DNA of 64,000 nucleotides from assembly GCA_022447925.1 (NCBI GenBank), contig JAKUTS010000003.1, forward strand, positions 1-64,000, given 5' to 3'. Below, piece by piece: positions 1,292 through 47,700 of this stretch. The number at the start of each line of letters is the position of its first letter. The stretch's first letter is position 1. Source of the DNA: SAR202 cluster bacterium (GTDB lineage Bacteria > Chloroflexota > Dehalococcoidia > Lucifugimonadales > UBA2962). Made by a program: the position numbers and the translations under genes. Below the pieces are notes generated by a model that made no database searches, was not told the origin of the DNA, and saw only the letters and a program-made list of their open reading frames with translations.

Positions 1292-2308
1292 ATGTTCGAA
1301 AGACAGGGTGATTCAATTCTAAATCTTAATGTTGAGAAATTACTTTTAAATGAAAAAACTATTGATGATTATTACATCAAGGAATGGGATGATTTACTTA
1401 ATCGGGTAGATAGTGCCAGCATGTTTTCTTCTTATTGGTTTTTGTCATCATGGCAAGATGTGTTTGTTCCTAACATGAGTCTCACAATTTTTTTAATTCG
1501 CAAAAATAATTGTTTGGTAGGCATGATTCCTGTCTTGGAAGATGAGTTTCGATTGACGATAGCTGGAGATCCTGAGTTATTCGATTATCAGCAGCTTGTT
1601 ATTCAGAAGGACATGGAAACGGAAGTAATTAATACATTTTTCGATTATCTAGAAAATGAAAGCTGGAAATATTTTGAACTAGCCTCTGTGTCTAACAATT
1701 TGCAGAAAAACATATTGATGAAAATTGCTGACGAACGAGGTTATTCTATAAACAGTGAACAGGTCGCTGTATGTCCGATTTTGGAACTACCAGATTCCTG
1801 GGATGAATACATCTCTACATTAAAGAAAAAATACAGACATGAACTTCGTCGTAAAATCCGACGTATTGAAAGTATGGGAGAGGTTGCTCATATATCTTTC
1901 AGTAATCCATCTAATGAAGATATAAATGAATTTTTTCGATTGATGCGTCTTACCGGAGAGGCGAAATCAGTATTTTTGACCTCGAAAGTAGAGAACTTTT
2001 TTAGGTTATTGATTCAAAATGCATCTAAAAGGAATCACGTCAATTTGTCGTTTCTAGAATTTAATTCACAAAGAGTGGCTGGTTGCATGGTTTTTGATTA
2101 TCAAAATGATTTCATGCTTTACAATAGCGGTTATGATTTTTCGAATCGACAGCTTGGCGCAGGGTTGATTAATAAAGCCTATGCAATAAGAGAAGCAATT
2201 AATTTAGGCAGATCGAGTTTTAATTTTTTAAAGGGGTCAGAGCGTTATAAGTATGAATTGGGAGGTATAGACACACCAGTTCATAACATAGTTATAAAAA
2301 AACATTAA
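1292..2308 (+). CDS. GNAT-fold acetyltransferase, BioF2/CelD-like
   Basis: KKKYRHELRRKIRRIES and GSERYKYELGG motifs typical of BioF2-like/FemAB-like acetyltransferases. Confidence 0.65.
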   Translation: MFERQGDSILNLNVEKLLLNEKTIDDYYIKEWDDLLNRVDSASMFSSYWFLSSWQDVFVPNMSLTIFLIRKNNCLVGMIPVLEDEFRLTIAGDPELFDYQQLVIQKDMETEVINTFFDYLENESWKYFELASVSNNLQKNILMKIADERGYSINSEQVAVCPILELPDSWDEYISTLKKKYRHELRRKIRRIESMGEVAHISFSNPSNEDINEFFRLMRLTGEAKSVFLTSKVENFFRLLIQNASKRNHVNLSFLEFNSQRVAGCMVFDYQNDFMLYNSGYDFSNRQLGAGLINKAYAIREAINLGRSSFNFLKGSERYKYELGGIDTPVHNIVIKKH

Positions 2309-2351
2309 TATGAATACCAAAGAGATAACTTTTATGAAACAAGGTGTGTAA

Positions 2352-3605
2352 TTGGAATATCGAGTAGCATTCCTGAGTTTGCATGGCTGTCCTGTAGCTC
2401 GTTTAGGAGAAAAAGATACCGGGGGTATGAACGTTTATCTAAAAGAAACGGCAAAGCAACTAGGAAAATTAGGAATAAAAGTTGACGTTTTTACTAGAGT
2501 TCATGATCCTAATGATGAGGAAGTAATACAGTTAGGAATTAATGCTAGGGTTATTCATCTAAAAGCTGGAGAATCTACTTATAGAAAAGAAGATTTATAT
2601 CAAGCTGGACCTGAGTTTGTGGAAAACGTTTTACGTTTTCAAAAGCATGAGAACACTGAATATAACCTGATTCATTCTCATTATTGGTTATCTAGCTATC
2701 CTGGAATCACATTATCTAAATTATGGTCAGTGCCTCTGGTTTCTACTTTTCATACATTAGCCAAATTGAAATTGAAGGCAAAAGCTGAAGAAAAAGAATC
2801 GCGCCGTAGAATTACGACCGAGACTGAAGCAATCCTACAGTCCGATGGGATTGTCGTTTCAACCGATTCTGAGATTTCGGATATTAAAGAACTCTACTTT
2901 AAATCAGACAAAACTTTTAAGCACTCTAAAATTAAGGTAATAACCCCTGGGGTTAATCTGGAGATTTTTCGTCCTGGAAACAGGTCAGAAGCAAAGAAAA
3001 AATTAAAGTTATCCACAAGGAAAATGGTTTTATATGCCGGAAGGGTAGAGCCGTTAAAAGGAATAGATATAGCTATTTCTGCCGTTGCTATGCTTGAAAT
3101 TAATGAGGAGGTCGATTTGATAGTGGTGGGTGGAGACTCAACTTCTGCTGATATTGTGGCGGAGCTAAAGGAATTGGCTAGTTCTTTGGGTATATCGGAA
3201 AGAGTCAAATTTGTTGGCTCTATTAGTCAATCTGAATTAGGTGATTTTTATAGGGCTGCTGATGTTCTTATATTTCCGTCCTATTATGAAAGTTTTGGAT
3301 TAGTAGCACTGGAGGCTATGGCATCCGGAACACCTGTAGTTGCTTCCCGGGTCGGTGGTTTAACTAAATTATTAAAGAATGGTGAAACAGGGTATTTAGT
3401 TCCATTTAGATGTGCTGAATCATTTACTGAGAAGCTTGAGGTTATTTTGTCCAACCCTGCATTACAAGATGCAATTAGTTATTCTGCACGACGTGATGCG
3501 ATCGGCTATGGATGGGCAGATTTAGCTAGGAAGCTGGCGGGGTTTTATACTTCACTGTCTGATCAATATAGTTTAGTATCAGATTCGGCCGTAGAAATAG
3601 TTTGA
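2352..3605 (+). CDS. GT4 glycosyltransferase, MshA-like (D-inositol-3-phosphate glycosyltransferase family)
   Basis: DTGGMNVYLKETAKQLGKLGIKVDVFTR, LIHSHYWLSS, FHTLAKLK, ESFGLVALEAMASGTPVVASRVGG; co-linear with actinobacterial MshA as I recall it; TTG start. Confidence 0.8.
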   Translation: MEYRVAFLSLHGCPVARLGEKDTGGMNVYLKETAKQLGKLGIKVDVFTRVHDPNDEEVIQLGINARVIHLKAGESTYRKEDLYQAGPEFVENVLRFQKHENTEYNLIHSHYWLSSYPGITLSKLWSVPLVSTFHTLAKLKLKAKAEEKESRRRITTETEAILQSDGIVVSTDSEISDIKELYFKSDKTFKHSKIKVITPGVNLEIFRPGNRSEAKKKLKLSTRKMVLYAGRVEPLKGIDIAISAVAMLEINEEVDLIVVGGDSTSADIVAELKELASSLGISERVKFVGSISQSELGDFYRAADVLIFPSYYESFGLVALEAMASGTPVVASRVGGLTKLLKNGETGYLVPFRCAESFTEKLEVILSNPALQDAISYSARRDAIGYGWADLARKLAGFYTSLSDQYSLVSDSAVEIV

Positions 3606-3608
3606 TTT

Positions 3609-4529
3609 TTAATGAGTTAAATTGAGCTCGTACCATACCGTTTCCTCAAGTAATTCAAAACCTAATGATAGGTAAAGTTCCCTCGCTGACATGTTGCTGG
3701 CGTCTACCTCTAGAGTCACGTTAGGTATTTTTAGCGATCCTAGGTAGTTTATGCCTGATTGAACAATGTAACGCCCTAGTCCCAAGCCCCTAAGTTCTGG
3801 GTGAATGCCTGTCATCCCTATATATCCATTCGCAGAATCATTCTTTTTAGGTCGATGAGTCCAATTATAGCCGACCATTTCTTGGTTCGAATTTTCGAGT
3901 ATAAGGATTCCATCACTTTCCCATTCAGTCAGCCTCGCTTTAGACGATATTTGGTTGACTGTATTTGGACTAAAGCCCCAGCTTCCTGCAAAAGATTTGT
4001 TTTGTAATTTTGTAAGTTCTTCCTCGTCTTTATCCATATTGAAAAATCTAAGCCGATAACCGGAAGGCGTTTTATCTTCATAAATCACTTGATTCTTTTT
4101 GGTCAGTTTCCAGTATCTTCTTACCGCAGCAAACCCAGCTTGTTCCAAGAGGAATCTTCCGGCGTCATTATTGACCGCTACTTGAATATGCAATATCTGA
4201 GAATTTAATTTGTCTGCGCGTTCGATAGCTGTTTGGAGTAGTTGCCTTCCAATTCCAAAGCGTCTGTACTCCGGATTTACAAATAAATTTGCTACTGCAC
4301 GTTCGATTTTAGCTTCATGCGTGACTCGTAAAATTCCAACAGGTGTATCTTCGATGTCAGCTATAAAGCAATTATTTTCTGGTTCAATGTCCGGTTGCTT
4401 TAAGAATAATTCTTTCGATGTTTGATTAATGTACAGGTCGTTATCAGAAGCTAAACCGTGGTTGAGCATTTCTGTCCACACATCTAATTTATCCCAGGCA
4501 AATGTATTAATTACAGCGATGCTTTGCAT
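3609..4529 (-). CDS. Tandem GNAT-domain acetyltransferase, MshD-like
   Basis: Two GNAT motifs: NPEYRRFGIGRQLL and HPELRGLGLGRYIV, then VTLEVDASNMSARELYLSLGFE; GYNWTHRP resembles MshD GFHWTKVHP. Confidence 0.7.
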   Translation of the reverse strand: MQSIAVINTFAWDKLDVWTEMLNHGLASDNDLYINQTSKELFLKQPDIEPENNCFIADIEDTPVGILRVTHEAKIERAVANLFVNPEYRRFGIGRQLLQTAIERADKLNSQILHIQVAVNNDAGRFLLEQAGFAAVRRYWKLTKKNQVIYEDKTPSGYRLRFFNMDKDEEELTKLQNKSFAGSWGFSPNTVNQISSKARLTEWESDGILILENSNQEMVGYNWTHRPKKNDSANGYIGMTGIHPELRGLGLGRYIVQSGINYLGSLKIPNVTLEVDASNMSARELYLSLGFELLEETVWYELNLTH

Positions 4530-4675
4530 AGAAATGTAATATTAATAGTATTAGTTTTACTTAGCATAACAAGCGGTGGGAGTGTATCAGAGGGATAAAT
4601 CACTAACAATACCTTTTTAGGTAACTGTTAAAATCTCATAGCGTTATTATGATTTTAATTAAAGTTTTTTAATAT

Positions 4676-5386
4676 TTGAGTGGATGGTTATATATGTATA
4701 TTCCAAAAAGTTTTATGGTTATTACCCCGCATCCGGATGACGCTGAGCTAGGTTGCGGTGGAACGATATCCAAATGGATTTCTGAAAAAGCATACGGGGT
4801 TTTATTGGTGTGCACCAATGGAGATAAAGGCTCCGCAGAGCCTCATATGACATCTCAAATGCTGTCTGGTATTCGTGCTGCAGAGCAAGAGTCTGCCTCA
4901 AAAGTACTCGGATTACAGGAAGTTGTATCCTTTGGTTATCCTGATGGTGAGCTGGATGATACAAAAGAATTTAGAGAACGTATCGTGAAGAATATAAGAA
5001 AATATCAGCCAGAAGTTGTGTTATCTACCGATCCTATAAGACAGAGCTTTTATATTCATAGAGACCATAGAATTACAGGTCAGGTAGTTCTTGATGCAAT
5101 CTATCCTTATTCTAGAGATAGATTGTATTATCCTCATCACGAAAAAGAAGGAATTTTAACTCATAAAGTGAAAGATGTTTTATTGTGGGGTTCCGAAAGT
5201 CCTAATGAGATAGTTAATATAACTGAATATATTGATACCAAAATCGAGGCCCTAAGCGAACACTCGAGTCAACTATCAGACATTGATAGTGTGGGTTCAA
5301 GACTTAAAGATAGTGCGAAAAGAGCGGCAGCTAACCAAGATTATCAATATGGAGAGGCCTTTAGGCGTATAGTTTTTCGCCAGTAA
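4676..5386 (+). CDS. PIG-L family deacetylase (LmbE/MshB/BshB-like)
   Basis: HPDDAELGCGGTISKW and HRDHRITG motifs; true start probably ATG at 4694. Confidence 0.85.
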   Translation: MSGWLYMYIPKSFMVITPHPDDAELGCGGTISKWISEKAYGVLLVCTNGDKGSAEPHMTSQMLSGIRAAEQESASKVLGLQEVVSFGYPDGELDDTKEFRERIVKNIRKYQPEVVLSTDPIRQSFYIHRDHRITGQVVLDAIYPYSRDRLYYPHHEKEGILTHKVKDVLLWGSESPNEIVNITEYIDTKIEALSEHSSQLSDIDSVGSRLKDSAKRAAANQDYQYGEAFRRIVFRQ

Positions 5387-5388
5387 CT

Positions 5389-6120
5389 ATGTATGACCTG
5401 CACTCCCATATATTACCGGGGATAGATGATGGTCCTCGAAGTAAAAATGAAAGTTTAGAATTAATTCTTGCGGCTTCACGTAGTGGAATCAAAACATTAA
5501 TCGCTACACCTCATATGAAAGATGTAAATGAGAAAAGGTCAGTTAGATATACTCAAGAAGTACTTAGATTATTACAACAAGATGTTAAAAGCTTGAATTT
5601 AAGTATTAGGTTAAAGATGGGGATGGAGAATCATCTTGCACCAAATACTCCAGATATGTTTAAAGCGGGTAAATCTTTGACAATTAATTCAACTAATTTC
5701 GCATTAATCGAGTTACCGTTCTTTGGTTATCCAGACTATGTTGATGATACTTTACAGGAACTTCAGCAAAACGGCATAACCCCTGTGCTGGCTCATCCAG
5801 AGAGAATCGAGCTTATTCAAAATAACCCTGCTAAATTGGAGCAATTCGTAAATCAAGGTATGGTTTCACAAGTGACATCAGGAAGTTTAATTGGTCAATT
5901 TGGCAAAGAGGTAAAGTCTTTTACAGAAATGCTTGTTACCAAAGGCATGGCACATGTCATGTCATCAGATTGTCACAGACCATTTGGGCGTCGGGCACCT
6001 GATTTACATGTCGGGTATCAAGCTGCATATCGTTTGATCGGAGAGGCTAAAGCCAAAATGTTGGTGTGCCATAACCCTAAGTCGATTATTAATGGAACTT
6101 ATACAAGTCATACATTATGA
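5389..6120 (+). CDS. PHP-domain phosphatase, CpsB/CapC/YwqE-like
   Basis: MYDLHSHILPGIDDGPRS, TPHMKD, VLAHPER, SSDCHRP metal-binding motifs. Confidence 0.8.
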   Translation: MYDLHSHILPGIDDGPRSKNESLELILAASRSGIKTLIATPHMKDVNEKRSVRYTQEVLRLLQQDVKSLNLSIRLKMGMENHLAPNTPDMFKAGKSLTINSTNFALIELPFFGYPDYVDDTLQELQQNGITPVLAHPERIELIQNNPAKLEQFVNQGMVSQVTSGSLIGQFGKEVKSFTEMLVTKGMAHVMSSDCHRPFGRRAPDLHVGYQAAYRLIGEAKAKMLVCHNPKSIINGTYTSHTL

Positions 6121-6525
6121 GTCAAAAAATTCAACAACCTTCTGTGGGGTAAAGGTAATTAAAATAAACTTACTAGTTTGTTTAATTTCATTTGCATATT
6201 TATCCCCTGCAATTTCACCTAAGTATTTAATAGATAATTCCATTAAAAGATCCTCATCTTTGCAATCAGATATTTTTGCATGCCCATTAAACATCACATA
6301 AGAGTATGGCGGATCAGTTTTGGAAATTAAAATTGCGACTCTATTGTCATGCTCAATGTTTCTGACTTTTACTGTTTTAGGCTCAGAAAGTATCAGGTAA
6401 TTCTCACCGTCATACTTGTACCATACAGGAGCTATGTGAGGTGAACCATCAGGCATTAAAGTAACAAGATCAGCAAGGTATTTACCTTTGACAAGAGATT
6501 CGGCACTTTTTGATAAATTGATCAT
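6115..6525 (-). CDS. PPOX-class, possibly F420-dependent, flavin/pyridoxamine oxidase-fold protein
   Basis: LADLVTLMPDGSPHIAPVWYKYDGENYLI...KVRNIEHDNRVAI typical of PPOX F420-dependent family. Confidence 0.7.
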   Translation of the reverse strand: MINLSKSAESLVKGKYLADLVTLMPDGSPHIAPVWYKYDGENYLILSEPKTVKVRNIEHDNRVAILISKTDPPYSYVMFNGHAKISDCKDEDLLMELSIKYLGEIAGDKYANEIKQTSKFILITFTPQKVVEFFDS

Positions 6526-43357: not shown

Positions 43358-44752
43358 TTAGGATTTTCGTCTAAAGCGGCGCGTGCTAATTACGGCAATA
43401 AATAAGAACATCGAAACCACGCCGATTTCAGTCCCATTGTCAGATTGAGTGTTACAAGAGCCAGAAGTGGATTGTAATTGGGTAGACTGGTTATTATCAA
43501 TTGAGTCTGCAACAGTCCGTCCTCCAGCCTTTGGAGTTAAGGTGAACGCTTCAACTGTTGGGTAGCTAACAGCTGTGGGCTTAGATTCAGCTATATTGGG
43601 CGGTACGTATGGACTAGCGCCTAATTCACTTCTCCATGCGTTGGTGAGTTCAAGGCGATCCATTCCATATACGGACATTAAAGCATCATCCATGTTCGTA
43701 CCGTCTTGGTGCAGCTTTAATAGCTGGCGCATTCCTGAGTTGCCTTCAAGAAAAATCATGTATTCCACAATACTTCTCGATTGTCCATAGAAAATTATGA
43801 TGTCTTCGGGATCACCTGGCAAAATCTGCATAAAAAGGTGGGGCAGCAATCTATCTGCTGCTATAGCAAATTCTAAAGCGTAGCTGTATGAATACCCGGG
43901 TTCAATATTCCCGTATTCAGCTAATCCTTCATGGAGCCATGAGGGTATTCTACGAAATATGCTGTGACCTGCCCGGTGATTTAAAATATGGGTTACTTCA
44001 TGCGAAGCTGTTCCATTGGCCATAGATCCGCCAACAAGTATCACTAAACTACCCTCTTCATTGAATGCCATGCCTTCTGTTATTAATTCTCTTCCAACTG
44101 CTGCGCTACCAATCGGCAGGGCATCTAGCATTTCTTTTTGGTTGTTATATAACGTTACTCTAATAGGTTCGCTAGTCTCAGCGCCAAGAACTGGTCCCAT
44201 ATTTTTTAAGGTGTCAATGATTACTTGTAATATGGTTTCTGCTCTTGATTGAATCGGACCATGGAATGCTACAGTAACTTCATCTTTAGATACTCGATCC
44301 CAGTCAAATCGAGCATCCTCATAAATAAGTTCTTGAGGTTCAGTATTATAAACATTTTGATTGGAATCTTGGATTTCAAACGTGTATTTTATTATTGTTT
44401 CTGGCGGTATATATCCAGCTAGGGTATTGGTACTATAAAACAACTCAGCATTAACTGTATCGGCAGGGTCATATGAAAGATATTCATAAACTCCAGTGGT
44501 TATTAATCCTATCTTGAACCTAACAGCTATTGATTCAATCTTGCTTGTCGATGTCGCTTTAACTTTAAATCGGATTCCTTTTGGGAATTCACTTGTTGCT
44601 GAAAAATCGATCACCTCGATAGGGGGATTGGTAGCATTAATGGAAGTCGTTGGCAGGATTAGTAATAAACCAAAAACTAAGATTAATATTGATGCTGATG
44701 AAATATTTTTAATACAAGTTGGGATCATATTTTGCCATGATAACTGATTCAA
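43358..44752 (-). CDS. Exported peptidase-MA-like protein with C-terminal Cys/TM/Arg tail
   Basis: N-terminal signal/TM; GTASHEVTHILNHRAG and WLHEGLAEYG; C-term SGSCNTQSDNGTEIGVVSMFLFIAVISTRRFRRKS. Confidence 0.75.
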   Translation of the reverse strand: MNQLSWQNMIPTCIKNISSASILILVFGLLLILPTTSINATNPPIEVIDFSATSEFPKGIRFKVKATSTSKIESIAVRFKIGLITTGVYEYLSYDPADTVNAELFYSTNTLAGYIPPETIIKYTFEIQDSNQNVYNTEPQELIYEDARFDWDRVSKDEVTVAFHGPIQSRAETILQVIIDTLKNMGPVLGAETSEPIRVTLYNNQKEMLDALPIGSAAVGRELITEGMAFNEEGSLVILVGGSMANGTASHEVTHILNHRAGHSIFRRIPSWLHEGLAEYGNIEPGYSYSYALEFAIAADRLLPHLFMQILPGDPEDIIIFYGQSRSIVEYMIFLEGNSGMRQLLKLHQDGTNMDDALMSVYGMDRLELTNAWRSELGASPYVPPNIAESKPTAVSYPTVEAFTLTPKAGGRTVADSIDNNQSTQLQSTSGSCNTQSDNGTEIGVVSMFLFIAVISTRRFRRKS

Positions 44753-45360
44753 TTTCTCTTACTAATCTGTCTAACAACTATTAAAAACCTTTGGATAGAA
44801 GTAATAATAGTTACAACGGCTAGTATGCCCATAATTATTTCGAGCATGGTTAACCACCAGTTTGCGACTAACAAGCCAATAAAAAGGCATATAATCCTTT
44901 CTGGTCTTGCCATTAATCCCGTTTTACATTCTATTTTTAAAGCTTCCGCTCTGGCACGAATATAGCTAACAGTTAAAGACCCGCCTAATCCAACTAATGT
45001 GAGTGAGGCCCCAACTGCGTTATCGTTCATGCTGAAGTATATTGTTAAGCCCAAAAATATAGCTATTTCACCGATTCGATCTGATAGTGAATCAATAAAA
45101 GCACCTAATTTAGTCACATTGTCGGTCAATCTTGCGACTGCACCGTCAAATAAGTCCATTATTCCGGATAAAAGCATAATAATGGCTGCAAAGAGAAAAT
45201 GATTATTAATTGATGTGTCTGCAATTAAATAGGCGCTAACAATTGCAAGGGCTAGTCCGATAAGGGTGACCAAATTTGGTGAAAGTCTTAATTTAATTAA
45301 GAATTTTGCTATTGGAATTTCAAAATATCTTGCAGTAATGTTTCTTATTTTATAAAGCAT
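44749..45360 (-). CDS. CDP-alcohol phosphatidyltransferase (candidate PI/PI-phosphate synthase)
   Basis: DLFDGAVARLTDNVTKLGAFIDSLSD matches D-x2-DG-x2-AR-x8-G-x3-D-x3-D. Confidence 0.9.
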   Translation of the reverse strand: MLYKIRNITARYFEIPIAKFLIKLRLSPNLVTLIGLALAIVSAYLIADTSINNHFLFAAIIMLLSGIMDLFDGAVARLTDNVTKLGAFIDSLSDRIGEIAIFLGLTIYFSMNDNAVGASLTLVGLGGSLTVSYIRARAEALKIECKTGLMARPERIICLFIGLLVANWWLTMLEIIMGILAVVTIITSIQRFLIVVRQISKRN

Positions 45361-45375
45361 TAAAATCTAAAGGCG

Positions 45376-46578
45376 TCAGATTGACCAGACGATTGGGCGA
45401 TCAGTACTTTTAACTTTACCACTTTTCGTCACATTTAATTTTAATTGTTTTTTATAAACCTTGAGTACTTTGTCAGTTACTTTTGCCCAGTTATATTGTT
45501 CGACATCTTTATTGCCAGATGCGATTAATTTTTTAGTTAGCTTTTTATCTTCAATGAGCCTGGATATGCTTTTAACTATCTCATAGGAGTTTTTTGGGGG
45601 TACTAATAAACCATTTCTCTCATTAGTTATTACACTAGAATACCCCTCTATATTTGTTGCAACTAATGGAGTGCCCGCAGCCATGGCTTCAATTAGTACG
45701 ATACCGAAACTTTCATTTCCGGTAGCCGGACTACAATAAATATCTGCAGTTTTATAAAAGGATGCTTTGATTTCGTCAGAAACACTTCCTACAAAAGTGA
45801 TGTCTTTTAAGTTTCTTTCGCTCATTATCCTGTAACAGTCACCATCAGGTTCGCCTGAGCCTACCACGATCAGTCTTAGTTTTGGGTAATCCCATTTTAA
45901 AGTTCCATATGCTTCTAATAAATATTTTAGTCCTTTGCGCTTAGCCAGAGCTCCCACCCACAATAGATTTATATGATCGTCTTTATATTTTTCAAGCGGA
46001 AGTGCACGTGAATAAAATTCGACATTGACTCCGTTTGGAATGATGTCATATTCACCTGGATAATGTTGGCTTATGAATTGTCTAGCAGGTTCCGAAACAG
46101 CGATTTTCCCATGAAGTCTTTTGAAATATGGATTACCTACCCAGCTAAGGCCCATACGATACACTTTATGTCCGCCGTATGTATGGAATGTGCCTATATT
46201 AACTGAATTTGACAGAGCTAAGGTATTGACCGTAAGGGAGCCTGCGAAGGGTTCATGAAAATGTAAGACATCAAAGTTTTCATTTGCAAGCATTGCTTGA
46301 ATTCGCCGTCTATTCCAAAGAGATACCGATACCCTTGCCCAATTACCACCGCTGGGAATAATGATAGGTCTATCAAATGGGATGAAATCCAAGTCATCAA
46401 TTAAATCGTTTTTAGAACAAGGGGCAATTATTTTGACAGTATAGTCGCGGCTGCGAAGTTCAGTAGCTAAATTCTGAACGTGATCCCGTACTCCGCCATG
46501 AGCTGAATGATCATATGCTGAAACTATACCGATTTTTATCGGAGCTTTCGTTTTGGAGGATAATATTTGTCGATTCAA
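45376..46578 (-). CDS. GT4 glycosyltransferase, PimA-like
   Basis: GGVRDHVQNLATELRSRDYTVKIIAP, FDVLHFHEPFAGSL, GTFHTYGG, ESFGIVLIEAMAAGTPLVATNIEGY; resembles mycobacterial PimA as recalled. Confidence 0.82.
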   Translation of the reverse strand: MNRQILSSKTKAPIKIGIVSAYDHSAHGGVRDHVQNLATELRSRDYTVKIIAPCSKNDLIDDLDFIPFDRPIIIPSGGNWARVSVSLWNRRRIQAMLANENFDVLHFHEPFAGSLTVNTLALSNSVNIGTFHTYGGHKVYRMGLSWVGNPYFKRLHGKIAVSEPARQFISQHYPGEYDIIPNGVNVEFYSRALPLEKYKDDHINLLWVGALAKRKGLKYLLEAYGTLKWDYPKLRLIVVGSGEPDGDCYRIMSERNLKDITFVGSVSDEIKASFYKTADIYCSPATGNESFGIVLIEAMAAGTPLVATNIEGYSSVITNERNGLLVPPKNSYEIVKSISRLIEDKKLTKKLIASGNKDVEQYNWAKVTDKVLKVYKKQLKLNVTKSGKVKSTDRPIVWSI

Positions 46579-46620
46579 TTCGACTTCTTTCGTTTTATGT
46601 TAGAACGCTTTTAATCCTAG

Positions 46621-47700
46621 CTATTCAGTTCCCGATATAAAGTTCTCAACCATTGTTCTAGCTTCTGAATCAGTATATTGATCTAGAGGTGATTTCATGA
46701 AATATGCAGATGGCCCAGCAATTGGACCGGATTCCCCACGATCTAATCCAATTTTTGCACATCTTATTGCATCAATTACTACACCAGCTGAATTTGGGCT
46801 ATCCCAAACCTCAAGCTTTAATTCCATATTTAGTGGTGCGTCACCGAATCCTGTGCCTTCCATTCTGATGTAACACCATTTTCTATCCTTTAACCAAGGC
46901 ACATGGTCACTGGGACCAATGTGGATATCTTCTTTTTTCATTTCATAGTCAAGCTGAGACGTCACAGACTGTGTTTTAGATATCTTCTTTGTTACTAAAC
47001 GGTCTCTTTCAAGCATATTTAGAAAGTCGGTGTTTCCGCCGAAGTTAAGCTGATAGGAATCATTTAATTTAACTCCACGATCCATCATTAGCCTGGTTAG
47101 TACACGATGGACTATTGTTGCGCCAACCTGAGATTTAATGTCATCGCCAATTATAGGTACTCCGGCTTCTCTAAACCTTTGTTGCCAATAATCTCCTGCA
47201 CCGCTTGCTATGAAAACGGGTACACAATTTATAAATGCGCATTTTGCTTGAAGTACTTGTTCTACATACCATTTTGTGGCCTCTTCAGACCCTACGGGTA
47301 AATAATTTATCACCACATCCACTTCTTTTTCACGCAGGATATTCGCGACGTCATCTGTGCTACCATCCGATTTCTCAACAACCTCTGACAGATATTTGCC
47401 AATTCCATCGTGTGTCATGCCGCGTTGAACCTTTACGCCTAGATTTGGTACGTCGGCAAATTTAATTGTATTGTTTGGCTCAGCAAATATAGCCTCAGAT
47501 ACGTCTAGGCCGACTTTGTTTTTATCTACATCAAAAGCAGCTACTATTTTAATGTCGCCTATGCCATATTCTCCAAGCACAGGATGCATGAGGCCAGGTA
47601 CTTCTGAACTAGAATCAGAGTCTGCATATTTACTAATCCCTTGTACTAAGGATGATGCGCAGTTTCCTACTCCGATTATTGCAACGTTAATGTTTCCCAT
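46621..47700 (-). CDS. ino1: Inositol-3-phosphate synthase, actinobacterial/archaeal-type
   Basis: [75 protein letters not shown]. Confidence 0.95.

Follow-up and report, generated by a model that had tools for sequence, protein, structure and literature searches.

Can a bacterium outside the Actinobacteria that carries no MshC make a mycothiol-type thiol, and which of its proteins would then attach the cysteine? The question is raised by a locus of five genes at positions 1292-6120 of a 64,000-nucleotide stretch of DNA (hereafter the window; contig JAKUTS010000003.1 of assembly GCA_022447925.1, positions 1 to 64,000, forward strand) from a SAR202-type member of the Dehalococcoidia, phylum Chloroflexota. 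Mycothiol has been described as unique to Actinobacteria (PMC4935862). A first-pass annotation had proposed a mycothiol-like locus in a non-actinobacterial genome and had listed a BioF2-like protein, an MshA-like family 4 glycosyltransferase (GT4), a tandem GNAT protein and a PIG-L deacetylase. All four open reading frames and the non-actinobacterial host were confirmed, and a fifth gene, encoding a PHP phosphoesterase, was found to fill the remainder of the interval. On balance we slightly favour the reading that the locus encodes a mycothiol-type pathway in which BioF2 replaces MshC at the cysteine step, most likely using cysteinyl-tRNA (Cys-tRNA). Gene identities, the MshA membership and pocket of the GT4, the lack of MshC and BshC, and the way in which BioF2 and MshC alternate were computed entirely by genomics and structure prediction (NCBIfam and Pfam profile searches, trees, an AlphaFold2 model and Foldseek), using a survey sample of 201 Chloroflexota genomes and a sample of 59 genomes of the window's order. 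The genome searches covered MshA, MshC, MshD, BioF2, BshC and Ino1.

The glycosyltransferase and its acceptor pocket

The GT4 (2352-3605, + strand) matches the MshA model TIGR03449 at 8.6e-108 and 360.8 bits, under the NCBIfam cut-off of 462.5; its scores on the sucrose-phosphate synthase and BshA models are 115 and 105 bits. Its best match in the PDB is MshA of C. glutamicum (3c48/3c4q), and the nearest named sequences come from SAR202 and other Dehalococcoidia genomes, at 64-82% identity. The inositol-phosphate pocket is kept, comprising Met24, Asn25, Lys78, His109, Tyr110, Thr134, Arg154 and Ser317. Four of these residues (Lys78, Tyr110, Thr134 and Arg154) had been judged conserved by eye, a claim borne out by an alignment in which none of the 43 Dehalococcoidia GT4s lacks any of them. 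At the positions that discriminate MshA from sucrose-phosphate synthase (Met24, His109, Thr134 and Ser317 versus Gln, Asn, Ser and Pro) the GT4 is in the MshA state. In contrast, the homologous GT4 Tll1590, a cyanobacterial sucrose-phosphate synthase, has Gln24, Arg78, Asn109, Ser134 and Pro317 in its pocket and belongs to a separate clade. The pocket residues are kept alike in genomes with BioF2 and in genomes with MshC-type genes, but differ in sucrose-phosphate and exopolysaccharide (EPS) enzymes.

In the GT4 tree, actinobacterial MshA is nested among the Chloroflexota proteins (support 100/97), with the sucrose-phosphate and EPS enzymes outside (99/95); the grouping with these transferases that had been put forward as a check on the MshA-like assignment was not seen. 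MshA-like GT4s occur in 141 of the 201 Chloroflexota genomes, none of them above the curated cut-off. Tree and residues together make it highly probable that the window GT4 is an MshA-type enzyme, predicted to transfer N-acetylglucosamine (GlcNAc) from UDP-GlcNAc to inositol phosphate. A genome of the window's order, G098, carries a run of BioF2, a highly divergent GT4 and an MshD-like gene (L185:5758-8682). Three pocket residues, Met24, Asn25 and Lys78, have been lost from this GT4, whose acceptor has possibly changed.

These results bear on two other kinds of locus. One is a polysaccharide or surface-glycan cluster, composed of an EPS GT4, a FemAB/CelD-like protein, a sugar deacetylase and a CpsB-type regulator phosphatase. 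CelD/FemAB proteins are found in exopolysaccharide systems, and the phosphoesterase of the locus belongs to the CpsB/CapC family. However, the tree separates the GT4 from EPS and sucrose-phosphate enzymes, no genes for capsule export or a polymerase lie next to the locus, and in other classes the same GT4 is paired with an MshC-clade enzyme, so we regard a glycan cluster as very unlikely. The other is bacillithiol synthesis (BshA, BshB1, BshC), which shares the logic of a GT4 plus a PIG-L protein, the window PIG-L scoring best with BshB1. Here, though, the GT4 is of the MshA type (360.8 versus 105 bits for BshA), and BshC (PF10079) was found in 0 of 201 Chloroflexota genomes by a search that included three positive control genomes.

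Absence of MshC and its alternation with BioF2

The first-pass annotation had seen no MshC in the window, and our search extended this to the whole source genome (1.58 Mb, 44 contigs, 86.7% complete), in which none was found. The sole CysS homologue there (L001) was considered as a hidden MshC and rejected, being a cysteinyl-tRNA synthetase (CysRS) in an ispD-ispF-cysS run. No MshC-type paralogue of ~400 amino acids was listed among the 59 genomes of the order, nor found in the class sample of Dehalococcoidia except in G146. Second CysS hits in 28 of the 59 genomes are long frames (727-955 amino acids, 194-239 bits), likened to CysRS-clade fusions on the basis of length and score rather than a tree. 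It could be argued that mycothiol is made canonically, with an ordinary MshC in the missing 13% of the genome and BioF2 unrelated to it. This would fit the incomplete assembly and the case of G146, a member of the same class with both an MshC-clade gene and BioF2, but it is hard to reconcile with the lack of such a paralogue across the order and the rest of the class sample, and we give it hardly any credence. Since MshC was searched for and not found, the locus was not classed as canonical mycothiol synthesis.

Outside the Dehalococcoidia, a second, short (~400 amino acids) CysS paralogue was found with the MshC model in most Chloroflexota classes. About 44 second copies, 20 of them among the lowest scoring, were checked by tree and the remainder were classed by hit count; the paralogues examined group with M. 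smegmatis MshC in a single clade (100/99) that is distinct from CysRS. Most MshC-clade paralogues keep a GxTPYDxxHxGH-type signature and the Cys, Cys and His of the zinc site. Because their profile scores overlap, the MshC clade and CysRS could not be separated by score, and trees were built for the lowest scorers instead. The MshC-clade paralogues scored on both models gave 372-408 bits, under the MshC cut-off of 485 and above that of CysRS, so that routine annotation would call them CysRS. The extra CysS copies in the BioF2-type families f52, f50, f58 and f43 were also considered as MshC, but those of ~730 amino acids proved to be CysRS by tree. Judged from gene content, a mycothiol-type pathway appears to be phylum-wide, with many other Chloroflexota carrying MshC-clade genes and few carrying MshD, which exceeds the NCBIfam cut-off in 4 genomes.

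Three side observations concern these paralogues. A ~730-amino-acid CysRS paralogue of the CysRS clade is fused to a family 2 glycosyltransferase (PF01406 + PF00535) in L159:1510-3702 (G137) and also in L153, L155-L158 and L160; the fusion is common in BioF2-type lineages and was not seen in the source genome. Family f22 (G008, G021, G040, G083, G099 and G107) has an MshC-clade paralogue (L136 and L137 were confirmed as such) but no MshA-like GT4 at E 1e-60, and its acceptor may differ from that of GT4-bearing genomes. In G097, an above-cut-off MshD lies ~3 kb from an MshC-clade gene (L181, 3630-4991 and 8290-9573).

At a threshold of at least 250 bits, BioF2 orthologues are present in 56 of the 201 genomes, 55 of which have the GT4; the apparent exception, G098, was resolved by the divergent GT4 that adjoins BioF2 there. 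In raw counts, 83 of the 141 GT4 genomes have at least two CysS/MshC hits but lack BioF2, 43 show the reverse, 12 have both and 3 have neither (Fisher p = 1.4e-21, uncorrected for kinship). Six of the twelve genomes with both (four of f52, G137 and G153) were reassigned to BioF2-only because their extra copies fall within the CysRS clade, and G062 became MshC-only. After these tree checks the distribution is 84 MshC-only, 49 BioF2-only, 6 both and 2 neither. On the GT4 tree, the BioF2 state changes at least 8 times, 6 of these being forced by well-supported branches, and families f21 and f28 each hold both BioF2 and MshC types. In kinship-corrected comparisons, all pairs differing in both traits do so in the expected direction. 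Its alternation with MshC throughout the phylum makes BioF2 the most informative gene of the locus, and it probably performs the step done elsewhere by MshC.

Gene order and predicted fold of BioF2

The BioF2/GNAT_6 gene (1292-2308, + strand; PF13480 at 8.5e-22, with a weak match to PF04339) ends 43 bp before the GT4. It stands directly upstream of the GT4 in all Dehalococcoidia loci examined whose contig extends that far. Of the 59 genomes sampled from the window's order, 54 have BioF2 and 52 have the GT4, and the two are neighbours in nearly all cases. The two genes also adjoin in many families besides those of the Dehalococcoidia, and the BioF2-GT4-PIG-L run recurs in Dehalococcoidaceae as well as in families from other classes. 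This gene order is far beyond chance.

The AlphaFold2 model of BioF2 (predicted local distance difference test 92.5; predicted template modelling (TM) score 0.88) has a double-GNAT fold like that of FemX. Foldseek placed Weissella FemX first (TM up to 0.69), and A-PGS/MprF and Sbb17/Sba18 also scored high. The latter (TMt 0.71-0.73) are peptide synthases that depend on aminoacyl-tRNA, and their structures were solved with streptothrisamine, an amino sugar compound. Acetyl-CoA GNATs among the matches reached 0.28-0.52. Sequence identity to the structural matches is ~10%; a BioF2 profile found no homologue among PDB sequences, and a comparison with a plasmid collection gave only three weak GNATs. 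The relative L191 matches PF02388 at 23.6 of 24 bits.

In FemX, a positively charged helix is thought to hold the tRNA and Lys305 acts at the active site, and the same 2026 review also describes Lys329 of DhpH-C (PMC12945691). BioF2 has a conserved basic helix at 179-195 (KKxRHELRRKxRR, net charge +4 to +6) and a conserved FLKGxERYKYxLGG with Tyr319-Lys320, in which the invariant Lys320 is a sequence-level candidate, named without superposition, for the counterpart of FemX Lys305. The predicted fold, and possibly also the basic helix and a conserved lysine after an aromatic residue, would be shared with the FemABX proteins, including Orf11, Sbb17 and Sba18 of streptothricin-type antibiotics. 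Orf11 of the BD-12 pathway is Gly-tRNA-dependent and acylates streptothrisamine, setting a precedent for amino sugars as acceptors of a tRNA-dependent enzyme (PMC12945691). By analogy, we propose for BioF2 a chemistry of the Orf11 type, again on an amino sugar, with cysteine and glucosaminyl-inositol (GlcN-Ins) as the partners instead. BioF2 differs from these proteins in its low identity to them, in its linkage to an MshA-type GT4 and a deacetylase, and in the amino acid proposed. That BioF2 carries out the MshC step with Cys-tRNA in particular is a tentative proposal.

The same GlcN-Ins backbone might instead receive another cap. BioF2 would then be an acyl-CoA or other aminoacyl-tRNA transferase, the product would not be a thiol, and the anticorrelation with MshC would reflect two end uses. 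The fold speaks for amide-bond chemistry and not for any one amino acid, window BioF2 and its two closest relatives (L032 and L033) have RQLGAG at the CoA-loop position, six genomes carry both BioF2 and an MshC-type gene, and at the 1e-15 level no relative of MshD was found in Dehalococcoidaceae. On the other hand, BioF2 and an MshC-clade protein have repeatedly replaced one another as partners of the same GT4, the nearest folds of BioF2 are aminoacyl-tRNA enzymes, an MshD-like neighbour is present in SAR202, and the acetyl-CoA motif [RQ]xxGx[GA] is mostly absent from the family, occurring in 3 of 27 members, the window protein among them. We consider a different cap unlikely, although worth keeping in mind.

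Deacetylase, phosphoesterase and acetyltransferase genes

The PIG-L family zinc deacetylase (4676-5386, + strand; PF02585 at 2.5e-30) appears intact, its HPDD and HxDH motifs being invariant. A specific likeness to MshB, as claimed for it, was not supported, as it scored 95.2 bits with BshB1 (cut-off 182.5) versus 36.1 with MshB, and its nearest proteins are diacetylchitobiose deacetylase and BshB1. It is predicted to convert GlcNAc-Ins to GlcN-Ins. The CpsB/CapC-type PHP phosphoesterase (5389-6120, + strand; PF19567 at 8.5e-54) starts 2 bp past the end of the PIG-L gene, and the pair is kept in most SAR202 loci, including those where it has been moved or turned (L047 and L058). The phosphatase acting after MshA has been described as unidentified (PMC7278568); its position makes the PHP protein a candidate for this role. 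The locus is adjoined by an F420-dependent PPOX-class oxidoreductase (6115-6525; TIGR03618 above cut-off), which is kept in several SAR202 relatives.

The tandem GNAT gene (3609-4529, - strand) was said to resemble MshD. Its best PDB match, mycothiol synthase 2c27, agrees with this, but TIGR03448 gives only 110.5 bits (9.2e-32) against a cut-off of 163.1, and it is better described as a weak MshD relative. Such a gene adjoins the GT4 in most SAR202 loci. It is predicted to N-acetylate the cysteinyl amine.

Inositol phosphate synthase and the phosphatidylinositol genes

The myo-inositol-1-phosphate synthase Ino1 (46621-47700, - strand; PF01658 at 6.8e-37) was present as annotated, but its presence is better explained by the genes around it than by the suggested role as supplier of the acceptor. 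It lies in a run (44749-47700) with a PimA-like GT4 (45376-46578, - strand; PF00534 at 9.4e-38) and a CDP-alcohol phosphatidyltransferase, likely a phosphatidylinositol-phosphate synthase (44749-45360, - strand; PF01066 at 1.1e-18). The run likely serves synthesis of phosphatidylinositol and lipids of the phosphatidylinositol mannoside type in this SAR202 genome, and phosphatidylinositol synthesis therefore accounts for ino1 without a thiol. The same run occurs in L186, ~16 kb from the BioF2-GT4-PIG-L run of that genome (G048). Ino1 was found in 184 of the 201 Chloroflexota genomes; it is a possible source of the acceptor, compatible with the pathway and not diagnostic of it.

These genes could point to an inositol lipid, with the GT4 and PIG-L making glucosaminyl-phosphatidylinositol as in glycosylphosphatidylinositol anchors and BioF2 acylating the glucosamine. 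Both the lipid genes of the window and their proximity to the locus in G048 would suit such a product, and GlcNAc-phosphatidylinositol deacetylase belongs to the PIG-L family. Yet the GT4 falls in the MshA clade with a pocket for soluble inositol phosphate, it co-occurs with MshC-type cysteine ligases in ~90 genomes, and Ino1 is also present in most genomes without the GT4. An inositol lipid is consequently an improbable product of the locus.

Proposed pathway

Turning to the mycothiol-type pathway that we favour, the enzymatic steps, the cysteine donor and the product are inferred as follows. The GT4 would couple GlcNAc and inositol phosphate, a phosphatase, perhaps the PHP protein, would remove the phosphate, and PIG-L would deacetylate the product to GlcN-Ins. 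BioF2, with its FemX fold, would then add cysteine to the glucosamine amine in the role of MshC, most likely from Cys-tRNA, and the MshD-like GNAT would acetylate the cysteine to give mycothiol or a close relative. With the actinobacterial pathway (MshA, an unidentified phosphatase, MshB, MshC and MshD) the locus shares an MshA-clade GT4 with its acceptor pocket, a PIG-L deacetylase and an MshD-related tandem GNAT. It differs in having a FemX-fold protein in place of MshC, a PIG-L not closest to MshB, the clustering of its genes in 5 kb, the pairing of PIG-L with a phosphoesterase and a non-actinobacterial host.

A number of observations weigh against this pathway. The informative independent pairs number only ~5 (p = 0.0625), six genomes have BioF2 together with an MshC-type gene and two have neither, and the source genome is incomplete. 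The fold of BioF2 leaves the amino acid unspecified, and the window protein carries a CoA-loop-like motif. PIG-L is closest to BshB1 and not specifically to MshB, the tandem GNAT scores under the MshD cut-off, and in Dehalococcoidaceae an MshD-like gene does not adjoin the GT4. Ino1 is uninformative on the acceptor, since it occurs with and without the GT4.

Implications for the Chloroflexota

A search of open-licence PubMed Central gave no paper reporting genes for mycothiol biosynthesis from Chloroflexota, and none describing thiol synthesis with a step of the FemX type; one SAR202 paper mentions a mycothiol-dependent maleylpyruvate isomerase, by annotation. The new point is the position of BioF2 in MshC's place, an arrangement for which no precedent was found in the same literature. 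It is conceivable, though still doubtful, that a FemX-fold, tRNA-dependent cysteinyltransferase makes Cys-GlcN-Ins, and that this enzyme and MshC have repeatedly taken each other's place within Chloroflexota, obligate anaerobes such as Dehalococcoides among them.

If true, a pathway of the MshA/MshC/MshD type across Chloroflexota, with another enzyme taking over the cysteine step in SAR202 and Dehalococcoides, would widen the range of mycothiol-type thiols, and the origin of the thiol would perhaps have to be moved, given that actinobacterial MshA is nested among the Chloroflexota proteins. For the phosphatase step, to which no enzyme has yet been assigned (PMC7278568), the PHP protein would be a candidate. 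The use of aminoacyl-tRNA would be a new one, a redox thiol being built with an amino acid from the translation machinery. Finally, a likely thiol would be named for abundant deep-ocean bacteria and for organohalide-respiring anaerobes.

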